This document shows positions 18,712 to 21,320 of a stretch of 64,000 nucleotides of DNA, in pieces. The notes beneath the pieces were generated by a model, which saw nothing but the letters and a program-made list of their open reading frames with translations, made no database searches and was not told the origin of the DNA. How positions within the stretch are numbered: the first letter of the stretch is position 1; each line of letters begins with the position of its first letter. The stretch is from IMG/VR virus record IMGVR_UViG_3300020810_001160, positions 1 to 64,000 of that record; one strand, 5' to 3'. The DNA comes from a virus. A program made the position numbers and the translations under genes.

Positions 18712-18719
18712 TATTTATC
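18712..18719 (-). promoter_or_regulatory. T4-type late promoter (GATAAATA) overlapping a stop codon
   Basis: GATAAATA on the minus strand. Its first TAA is the stop codon of the coiled-coil gene upstream. The next ATG with a ribosome site (18621) is about 90 bp away, across a GC-richer leader with a CCAG/CTGG hairpin at 18675-18688. Confidence 0.6.
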
Positions 18720-18987
18720 GTTTGCTGAGTGATGCCAATAGCTCTACTTTTGAGAATTTTTTTGCTAGTTCTAAGGCTTGTACAAGCACTTGATTGGCTT
18801 GTTCTAAATAGTGTTCACGTTTGGTCCTGCGATAATCCACTAGTATGTTGGTGTATTCATCATACATTTTATCCAATGTGCGTTCCAGTCTTTTGATGTC
18901 GTTTATGAATATGCCGTGATTGCGTTTCCACACTTGTAATCTTTCCTGATATTCTTTAAATTCTACAAGCAGTTGTTCATGTTTCAT
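18715..18987 (-). CDS. Small coiled-coil protein (90 aa)
   Basis: The function is not recognised. The product is almost entirely alpha-helical and highly charged, with heptad-like spacing in segments such as 'KRLERTLDKMYDEYTNILVDYRR' that suggest a coiled coil. The ATG lies 4 bases after the stop of the HemB-like gene, so the two are probably one transcript. The stop codon is embedded in the next late promoter. No signal peptide or enzyme motif is seen. It could be a phage regulatory or virion protein unrelated to HemB. Confidence 0.65.
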   Translation of the reverse strand: MKHEQLLVEFKEYQERLQVWKRNHGIFINDIKRLERTLDKMYDEYTNILVDYRRTKREHYLEQANQVLVQALELAKKFSKVELLASLSKR

Positions 18988-18991
18988 ACAA

Positions 18992-19795
18992 TTATTTAAA
19001 ATGTTTTACAAGGTCTCTTGTGCCGTATGACACCAAAAATTTTACTCCTGCTCGCTTGTAAACTTCAGCAATTTCCAGTTGATGTTGGAATGTGGGCAGT
19101 CCTCTATACTCATCAGACACTTGATATAACCCAACAGGTTCATACATACCACACTGTATATTTGAAAACACACCCAGACTGTGCTGTGCTGGTTTTAACA
19201 AAATGTAATCTGCTTTTTGTTTTTGATAATCATTTGCATGAGCAATCATGCTCCAATTGTTGCTGATCGGCAGTTGATAACTTCTGCCTGTGGTTGGTGT
19301 GCTGTTGGCTAGATCTCTGAATGCACTGTAAAACACACTGCGATATTTTACATAAGCCATCACAGGTTTATTGGTTTCTGTTTTTAAATTTCTTACAGTG
19401 TGATCGCCCATGTCCGAAGGAGCCAGTATGTCTGCACCTGCTGACTCTAATTTTTTACCCAAATCAATCAACAGTGCTTCACTGGTGTCTGGTTTATCCA
19501 ACACTCTACAATGTCCATCTGGCAGTGTGGAACATAGACACACATCCACAATTAATTCTATATTTGGAAAACGTGTTTTAATTTTATTCACAACCTCAGC
19601 ATTAAAACTCCAATCAGGAGTCCATGTTTTGGTATCAGGAGTTATAAACAACAGGAAACTGTCTACTCCAACATCAACATCTTGTTGAATTCTATCTAGT
19701 ATGGTGTCTTGTGAATAACTGGAATTTTCTAAACCTAATCCAGCCGTCTTATTGCTACCAGATTGGTTCACAAAGATTGGCTGGATTAAGTCCAT
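18992..19795 (-). CDS. hemB-like: Porphobilinogen synthase-like protein (HemB family)
   Basis: HemB (delta-aminolevulinate dehydratase) condenses two 5-aminolevulinate molecules into porphobilinogen, the first common pyrrole precursor of heme, siroheme and B12. The protein follows HemB motifs in order. An 'LIQPIFV' start is followed by 'VDVCLCSTLPDGHC', holding the zinc-site Cys86, Cys88 and Cys96 with the C-x-C-x7-C spacing of the bacterial zinc enzyme. Next come 'AGADILAPSDM' and 'AYVKYRSVFYSAFRD' with the first active-site Lys150. 'ADYILLKPA' then carries the Schiff-base Lys201, followed by 'PVGLYQVSDEY' and 'KRAG..FLVSYGTRDL'. At 267 residues it is shorter than the usual 320-340; the N-terminal oligomerisation arm is largely missing. 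The gene is second in a lipoprotein-HemB-coiled-coil cassette under a sigma-70 promoter. Homology is strong; activity is inferred. Confidence 0.88.
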   Translation of the reverse strand: MDLIQPIFVNQSGSNKTAGLGLENSSYSQDTILDRIQQDVDVGVDSFLLFITPDTKTWTPDWSFNAEVVNKIKTRFPNIELIVDVCLCSTLPDGHCRVLDKPDTSEALLIDLGKKLESAGADILAPSDMGDHTVRNLKTETNKPVMAYVKYRSVFYSAFRDLANSTPTTGRSYQLPISNNWSMIAHANDYQKQKADYILLKPAQHSLGVFSNIQCGMYEPVGLYQVSDEYRGLPTFQHQLEIAEVYKRAGVKFLVSYGTRDLVKHFK

Positions 19796-19801
19796 CGTGT
19801 T

Positions 19802-20002
19802 TTACTTCTTGTCTTTTTTAGGAAGTGCCGCACACTGTTCTGTATCTGCTGGTAAGCCAGCATTTTTGTCATAGATCCAAACGTATGAGTATGTTACTTT
19901 GTCATCACTCACTTGACATTTTTTTCCAAATGCTACTCTTGGTTCTTTGATAGAACAAGCAGACACTAACAACATGGTTAAAAGTATCGCGATATATTTC
20001 AT
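19802..20002 (-). CDS. Small predicted lipoprotein (66 aa)
   Basis: The N-terminus MKYIAILLTMLLVSAC is a type II signal peptide: one Lys, a hydrophobic stretch, and the lipobox V-S-A-C with the lipidated Cys16. The mature part is only about 50 residues and has two further cysteines and a Lys-rich end (PKKDKK). It would sit in the cell envelope facing the periplasm. Candidate roles are an outer-membrane spanin (Rz1-like), although it is not proline-rich as many are, or a superinfection-exclusion lipoprotein. It is the first gene after a consensus sigma-70 promoter and has a GAGGA ribosome site, so it may be expressed early. No family name is assigned. Confidence 0.75.
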   Translation of the reverse strand: MKYIAILLTMLLVSACSIKEPRVAFGKKCQVSDDKVTYSYVWIYDKNAGLPADTEQCAALPKKDKK

Positions 20003-20034: not shown

Positions 20035-20063
20035 ATTATAGCACATTTTGGTTTGGATGTCAA
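20035..20063 (-). promoter_or_regulatory. Consensus sigma-70 promoter
   Basis: On the minus strand TTGACA (20063-20058) and TATAAT (20040-20035) are separated by exactly 17 bases, so both hexamers match the consensus fully. Transcription would start near 20028, 25 bases before the lipoprotein ATG, just downstream of the capsid-gene terminator. Confidence 0.9.
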
Positions 20064-20094: not shown

Positions 20095-20116
20095 AAAGGG
20101 GGCCGAAGCCCCCTTT
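20095..20116 (-). terminator. Rho-independent terminator after gp23
   Basis: A 9-bp perfect stem (AAAGGGGGC with GCCCCCTTT) has a UUCG tetraloop on the minus strand and is followed by a run of seven T's. It is 23 bp downstream of the gp23 stop codon. Confidence 0.92.
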
Positions 20117-20138: not shown

Positions 20139-21320
20139 TTAACTGAATGATGTGTTCGATACACCGATCGTTTCAACATAATCAGCCGCGTTACCTAAAG
20201 ATGACGCTGTGTTGTTTAACTCTACATAACCATATCTAGTCATGAAAGAAACAACTGGCTCAAAAGTTGATGGATCTAGAACAACACCAGAAGACATTAA
20301 CGGAATGTATGGGCAATAGAATGCCGCCGCATCTGCTTCTGATGATCCTTTGTAACCAACAAGTACATCTGTACTGTCAGCCGCATAAGTGTCAACATAT
20401 ACTTTCATCGCACTGTTTAAAGTTCCAACGAATTTTTGGTTAGTTGGTGCTTCAAACGTACCTTCAGTTGTTCTTGCGAACGCTGAAGTTGTAGCAGACT
20501 GAAGTACTGTTAATGCTAATGGAGATACCACTGCAAAATTACCAGCACCACGTCTTGTGTTTTGTGCGATTTTGTTAGCCGCTCTGTTGATTAATACAGC
20601 CAAAGCCGCGTGTTCATCACCTACGAAAGTCGCAGTTCCTGATACAGCCGCTTGGTTGTATGTTCCAGATGATTGAGCACCTGCAAGTGATCTTAATGAA
20701 GTGATGATCTCTTGGTCGATTTCAGCAGTAATTTCTTGTGCTAATGCCGCCATGATTTCAGCCTCTACATCAATACCTTGTTGTGCTTGTGCATCTTGAG
20801 CAGATTCAAATGTCCATCTTGCTTGTAACTTACGAGTTTTTGCTTCAACTGTTTGTTTCAAGATTTGGATTGACATTGCTCTACCACCAGTACCTTCTTT
20901 AGTTGCTGTTGCATCACCTTTAGCAGTTGTTAAACTACCTGAGTATGCTTGAGCAATTTTGAATGGTGATAGTGCTTCTTCACCTGCCGCCGTGTCTGTG
21001 TTGATAGCAGAAGTGTCGTTTGTTGTTTCTGCGTATCTAACTCTTAGTGTGTGGATTTGACCAACTGGGCCAGTCATTGGTTGAACTCCAACCAATTCGT
21101 TAGCGATTACAGTAGGCATAACCCTTCTGATCACCGGTAGGATCACTCTGTTTAAAGTAGCAACGTTACCTGCAGATGTAGCACCTGCTGTCGCAGACTC
21201 TGAAAGATACTTTTTAGTATTTTCTAAAGTCGCTTCCATCACGGCTTTTTTATTGCCTGATAGACCTTCTAATAACGCACTCTTTGTGTCCTGCCAGCGA
21301 GTTTCTGTTAGTTCTGACAT
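20139..21320 (-). CDS. gp23: Major capsid protein gp23
   Basis: The T4-family major capsid protein, which assembles as hexamers around the scaffold and is trimmed by gp21. The sequence has the expected early segment 'NRVILPVIRRVMPTVIANELVG' followed by 'VQPMTGPVGQIHTLR'. A middle region 'AEIMAALAQEITAEIDQEII' and the 'VVSPLALTVLQSA' and 'FYCPYIPLMSSGVVLDPSTFEPVVSF' motifs follow, in gp23 order. At 393 residues it is shorter than T4 gp23 (521) and similar to marine relatives. It follows gp22 by 18 bp with an AAAAGGAG ribosome site and is terminated by a strong hairpin. Confidence 0.95.
   Translation of the reverse strand: MSELTETRWQDTKSALLEGLSGNKKAVMEATLENTKKYLSESATAGATSAGNVATLNRVILPVIRRVMPTVIANELVGVQPMTGPVGQIHTLRVRYAETTNDTSAINTDTAAGEEALSPFKIAQAYSGSLTTAKGDATATKEGTGGRAMSIQILKQTVEAKTRKLQARWTFESAQDAQAQQGIDVEAEIMAALAQEITAEIDQEIITSLRSLAGAQSSGTYNQAAVSGTATFVGDEHAALAVLINRAANKIAQNTRRGAGNFAVVSPLALTVLQSATTSAFARTTEGTFEAPTNQKFVGTLNSAMKVYVDTYAADSTDVLVGYKGSSEADAAAFYCPYIPLMSSGVVLDPSTFEPVVSFMTRYGYVELNNTASSLGNAADYVETIGVSNTSFS

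Follow-up and report, generated by a model that had tools for sequence, protein, structure and literature searches.

Marine T4-like phages carry a compact gene predicted to encode a zinc-type porphobilinogen synthase without an N-terminal arm

Enzymes of the tetrapyrrole trunk have already been reported from marine phages. A phage 5-aminolevulinate synthase (valaS) was described and tested (Wegner et al. 2024, PMC11480375), and coproporphyrinogen oxidase and porphobilinogen deaminase were named in one pelagimyophage of a 'deep ecotype' (Zaragoza-Solas et al. 2020, PMC7029224). Among the cellular porphobilinogen synthases (PBGS), the enzyme of R. capsulatus is a highly active hexamer without the allosteric-Mg site, and therefore a non-octameric PBGS can work (PMC535902). 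Here we describe a phage gene for PBGS (hemB), the enzyme following 5-aminolevulinate synthase in the pathway, its relatives in other phages and its position among the cellular HemBs.

The window analysed is a stretch of 64,000 nucleotides (positions 1 to 64,000) of the IMG/VR virus record IMGVR_UViG_3300020810_001160. An earlier note on this DNA, given without a strand, had claimed a 267-residue HemB at 18992-19795; the gene is indeed present there, with 267 codons and an ATG start, on the minus strand, the plus strand being full of stops. Family, fold and catalytic residues all agree with the proposed identity, and the gene is conserved among IMG/VR records. The product matches Pfam ALAD (PF00490) with E=8e-43 and 147 bits (cut-off 24.6) over profile positions 26-315 of 317, i.e., the curated cut-off is exceeded along the whole barrel, and a phmmer search of the PDB matched 24 sequences, every one an ALA dehydratase (best E 5e-20). 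An AF2 model, for which 17 phage sequences served as input, has a pLDDT of 92.7 and a pTM of 0.92; all 50 best PDB matches listed for it are PBGS, with the E. coli enzyme 1b4e at the top (TM 0.92, rmsd 2.0). A structure search of BFVD returned other barrels but no PBGS fold, and no family for the phage hemB was found in PHROGs. In the NCBIfam porphobilinogen synthase equivalog (NF006762) the protein reaches 129 bits, below the cut-off of 297; a chromosomal HemB with a shortened arm, from a SAR11 subgroup (see below), also misses it with 285.5 bits, which suggests that this cut-off disfavours short forms. The codon use of hemB deviates only slightly from that of neighbouring genes. Judged by profile and predicted structure, the phage hemB product is a member of the ALAD/porphobilinogen synthase family.

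The residues that the earlier note had singled out (Cys86, Cys88, Cys96, Lys150 and Lys201) are all in place, and we followed them through an alignment of 21 phage HemBs and E. coli HemB (E. coli numbering counts Met1). The zinc triad (CLCSTLPDGHC, codons at 19508-19540, minus strand) aligns with C120, C122 and C130 of E. coli, and the two Schiff-base lysines, Lys150 (19346-19348, minus strand) and Lys201 (19193-19195, minus strand), align with K195 and K247. That note had named loss of the lysines in phage homologues as an outcome to look for; both lysines and the three cysteines are unchanged in 21 of 21 aligned sequences. Likewise invariant are D118, which precedes the zinc site, S165, the serine of the APS motif, R205, Q220, Q271, Glu275 and Y312 (E. 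coli numbering). The position of Phe204 holds Phe or Trp, that of Tyr270 Tyr or Phe, and that of Ser273 Ser in all but one phage HemB, which has Gly. All phage members, as well as the SAR11 subgroup, carry the C-x-C-x7-C triad and not D-x-A-L-D...D, and by this triad the phage HemB falls into the zinc-dependent subclass of PBGS. The dN/dS ratios among homologues (31 pairs) range from 0.04 to 0.25, therefore the protein is under purifying selection; together with the invariant catalytic residues, these ratios rule out a pseudogene.

The phage proteins depart from the textbook enzyme in several respects. The N-terminal arm, which supports the active oligomer in known PBGS, had been noted as nearly missing, and the alignment bears this out: residue 2 corresponds to residue ~30 of the E. 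coli enzyme, i.e., ~28 residues are gone. The first barrel strand marks the start of the phage HemBs, and this start point is the same across homologues; the only possible exception is one 37%-identical member (L055) with its near-copies, which may have ~10 N-terminal residues of their own. The position of E. coli E232, which we take to be the allosteric-Mg glutamate, is occupied by H, T, S, I or R, the glutamate not being kept. One residue is deleted in the active-site lid, where Gly occupies the position of E. coli Arg216 and a conserved Arg171 follows one place later, nearer to Gln174, which is conserved too; near the C terminus, ~9 residues are missing. Because the phage proteins begin at the first barrel strand, we do not file them, on the basis of their sequences, as canonical octameric PBGS, the arm and the allosteric-Mg glutamate both being missing. 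It might be argued from these departures (missing arm, lid deletion, lost allosteric residue), and from the solitary hemB in the lineage of the window, that the PBGS barrel was kept for chiefly another role, such as binding of ALA or zinc or the use of a related substrate, since the active oligomer could not form without the arm. We regard this as improbable, because the lysines, the zinc triad and nearly all substrate-site residues are kept at 35-100% identity, which binding alone would not require, and because members of this family occur within heme operons in other phages.

The surroundings of hemB are those of a phage genome. In the lineage of the window, down to 37% identity, the gene order is portal, gp21-like, gp22-like, major capsid, (lipoprotein), hemB, a 90-aa ORF and further structural genes, the names gp21 and gp22 being our assumption from position and T4 gene order. 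The upstream neighbour of hemB is the gp23 major capsid protein (20139-21320, minus strand; PHROG 138, E=3e-100), followed by a predicted intrinsic terminator (20095-20116, minus strand), and a similar stem-loop is present in most relatives. Behind it lies a candidate sigma-70 promoter (TTGACA-N17-TATAAT; 20035-20063, minus strand), with a 12/12 match and a TG before the -10 box, for a unit of a putative lipoprotein gene and hemB. The promoter match recurs in 16/18 sampled homologues with enough upstream sequence, including L055, and is absent in L025 and L060. In the relatives the promoter usually has a CCAAAAT-like spacer, also where hemB directly follows it, and the promoter with this spacer occurs as a single copy within the window. 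In L048 and other such relatives, only 6 bases separate the end of the -10 box from the hemB ATG, and their mRNA may therefore be leaderless. The first gene of the unit (19802-20002, minus strand) encodes a putative lipoprotein of 66 aa with an LVSAC lipobox and no Pfam or PHROG match; it is small and conserved, and in some relatives it is missing and the promoter abuts hemB. Directly downstream of hemB, the 90-aa ORF (18715-18987, minus strand), also without a Pfam or PHROG match, is kept in all compared same-locus relatives. The phage setting proposed earlier is thus borne out by the portal and major-capsid neighbours and by the same placement in eleven other contigs. The attribution to a T4-like phage holds as well and can be refined, as capsid and portal are nearest to those of jumbo T4-like phages; their nearest relatives include Phosso and Atu_ph07, phages of alphaproteobacteria.

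Altogether, IMG/VR contains ~45 hemB loci that are 35-100% identical. Among 46 capsid-gene neighbourhoods 77-87% identical to that of the window, only 2 carry hemB, hence the gene is accessory. The GenBank phage records searched, isolate phages included, hold no close relative of the window hemB; what matched there shares 27-31% identity and seems to be contaminating bacterial DNA. Such records, in which a few 'phages' do hold an apparently contaminating bacterial hemB, might raise the suspicion that the gene of the window too is a bacterial fragment, a contaminant or a product of misassembly. This is scarcely credible, given that hemB is flanked by gp23 and by phage structural genes in contigs of many different metagenomes at 37-100% identity, that the phage HemBs form a clade of their own (support 100/99), and that no arm-less HemB occurs among the matches listed from ~600 genomes of Pseudomonadota and Bacteroidota. 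We reject contamination and misassembly on the recurrent locus and the phage-only clade. The gene lies in a phage genome, has a cellular metabolic homologue and is neither a virion nor a replication gene, as is characteristic of a phage auxiliary metabolic gene.

This reading as an auxiliary gene, advanced in the earlier note, gains support from related phages, in which hemB adjoins either heme oxygenase or hemF and hemC in one row, with alaS in the same genome. In G007 (60.6 kb), hemB, heme oxygenase, bilin reductase and alaS form one row, which is the published valaS cassette. In G702 (177.5 kb), which has T4-type neck and terminase genes on the same record, hemF, hemB and hemC overlap in an operon (L254:626-3064; G702:57002-59440), hemC (318 bits) and hemF (331 bits) each scoring above its NCBIfam equivalog cut-off, and alaS (566 bits), heme oxygenase and bilin reductase are found elsewhere on the record. 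By these assignments, the genes predicted on G702 would take a single phage most of the way from glycine to bilins. In G008 (48 kb), pyrF, hemF, hemB and heme oxygenase follow each other end to end. A scan for phage hemF yielded 18 loci: eight have hemF-hemB-hemC in that order (some near-identical, some with an ORF between hemF and hemB), one has hemF and hemB in view, one hemE-hemF-hemC, two hemF-hemC, two hemF-hemE and four hemF alone in view. The hemE-hemF-hemC row (L374:3024-5529) adjoins phage-like genes, which suggests that uroporphyrinogen decarboxylase, too, is carried by phages. The two hemF-hemE pairs (L375, L376) would be viral by their membership in IMG/VR; that of L375 (3974-5784) lies near a dnaK-like gene.

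The presence of heme oxygenase and bilin reductase in some hemB phages, and the fact that porphobilinogen is common to all tetrapyrroles, could mean that an active PBGS serves the phage mainly for B12/corrinoids or bilins and not for heme itself. We consider this possible but rather unlikely, as hemF, whose step lies beyond the branch point to B12, accompanies hemB in G702, G008 and others and so points to the heme branch, and as neither bilin reductase nor heme oxygenase was found in the record of the window. That record, 100.6 kb long and linear, so that it may be a fragment, also yielded no alaS, hemC, hemD, hemE, hemF, hemG, hemH or hemN. The rest of it contains a cluster of several radical-SAM/SPASM proteins (L064:7972-17214) with glycosyltransferase-like and oxygenase-like ORFs nearby. 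A pair consisting of a MoxR-type ATPase and a VWA/DUF2201 protein was seen at L065:9989-12437; such pairs are often labelled cobS/cobT in marine phages, and the profiles found for this one give no support for a cobalt chelatase.

Cellular relatives were reached via alaS-bearing genomes; a direct scan of genome contigs gave nothing, because the patterns used were phage-specific. The phage profile matched 375/399 Pseudomonadota and 162/198 Bacteroidota genomes, nearly all of the matches listed lying in frames of at least 320 aa, and a single genome (G392) scored far above all others. In its family, the phage-like HemB type was found in 6/60 sampled genomes and the usual type, judged by score, in 43 others; in the nearest cellular kin, the phage-like HemB is the only HemB found. 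Genomes of this family measure 0.8-1.6 Mb, and the SAR11-441R probe matches with 0-2 mismatches in 9/12 tested family genomes versus 0/4 other genomes, so that by this probe match the family would be SAR11. In the phylogenetic tree, the phage HemBs form one clade (100/99), sister to the zinc-type HemB of the SAR11 subgroup (100/99), and the clade stays when long branches are left out. The phylogeny against SAR11 proposed in the earlier note thus did find kin there, namely the zinc-type HemB of this subgroup, and the usual SAR11 enzyme is not among them: a single clade of phage and usual SAR11 HemBs is rejected (AU p=7e-7), and with it an origin from the usual SAR11 HemB. The HemB of the subgroup is zinc-type (DTCLCSVTTDGHC), whereas the usual SAR11 HemB reads DVALDPYT..GHD, without the zinc cysteines. 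In the subgroup (L140, L181-L185), the zinc-type, arm-shortened HemB replaces the usual non-zinc one, and in G392 (L140) its gene overlaps hemE. The zinc-type HemB of the subgroup may derive from this viral lineage, or the phages may have acquired theirs from the bacteria. No tRNAs were found in the search for host clues; SAR11 or a related alphaproteobacterium is a reasonable inference for the host.

We conclude, with a probability of roughly 0.85, that the gene encodes a working zinc-dependent PBGS, carried as cargo with its own promoter by a T4-like marine phage, which probably relieves a tetrapyrrole step and escapes octamer allostery. The host RNA polymerase would read the lipoprotein-hemB unit from the sigma-70 promoter, and the terminator would insulate this unit from the capsid operon. 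The enzyme would condense two molecules of 5-aminolevulinic acid to porphobilinogen with zinc and the usual two-Schiff-base chemistry, and thereby probably relieve the second step of the trunk during infection; the extra porphobilinogen may keep heme, and through heme bilins, or B12, being made. As the N-terminal arm and the allosteric-Mg residue are missing, the protein probably forms no regulated octamer and would be free of host-type allosteric control. The suggestion of the earlier note that the gene raises tetrapyrrole supply or bypasses host control is in line with this, and, like it, the activity, oligomeric state, timing and physiological benefit of the phage HemB are what we infer. 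Against this conclusion count the solitary hemB in the record of the window, the sub-equivalog score, the lid deletion and the missing arm.

A broader scenario, to which we give somewhat less than an even chance, is that marine T4-like phages evolved a compact arm-less active PBGS free of octamer-hexamer allostery that supplements a host enzyme of different metal type, that some lineages hold a nearly complete glycine-to-heme/bilin route (alaS, hemB, hemC and hemF, then heme oxygenase and bilin reductase; other phages have hemE), and that the HemB of the SAR11 subgroup may be virus-derived. Since related viruses have hemB beside other genes of heme synthesis, it seems that some ocean phages take control of the heme-precursor pathway in infected cells. 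The phage heme genes form operon-like rows that span much of the trunk, so that one can test whether the demand of phages for heme, bilins or B12 exceeds what the host supplies, or whether host control is bypassed. Furthermore, a naturally arm-less zinc PBGS offers a direct test of the model that oligomeric state and activity are governed by the N-terminal arm.

Compared with cellular zinc-type PBGS (E. coli 1b4e), the phage HemB shares the barrel fold (TM 0.92, predicted), the zinc triad, the two Schiff-base lysines and the substrate-site residues; however, it is phage-encoded and only ~26-28% identical, has neither the N-terminal arm nor the allosteric-Mg glutamate, and has lost one residue of the lid and ~9 residues near the C terminus. 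The HemB of the SAR11 subgroup resembles it in the zinc triad, the lost allosteric glutamate and the shortened arm, but retains ~13 residues before the barrel, is chromosomal and is 34-43% identical to the phage members. The PBGS of R. capsulatus is metal-independent and possesses the arm, whereas the phage HemB has the zinc triad and no arm (PMC535902 for the former). The valaS study concerns the enzyme preceding HemB and its text does not mention hemB (PMC11480375), nor is hemB named in the text of the pelagimyophage study (PMC7029224). The earlier note knew of no such phage gene, and the main texts of the open-access literature likewise yielded no report of a phage hemB. Phage tetrapyrrole genes are thus already known, and hemB and its compact arm-less form are, as far as we searched, new, adding a step that we did not find described to the heme-pathway genes of ocean phages. 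The valaS cassettes (PMC11480375) resemble hemB in being auxiliary genes of marine phages for the tetrapyrrole trunk, and the hemB phages G007 and G702 bear, as those cassettes do, alaS, heme oxygenase and bilin reductase.
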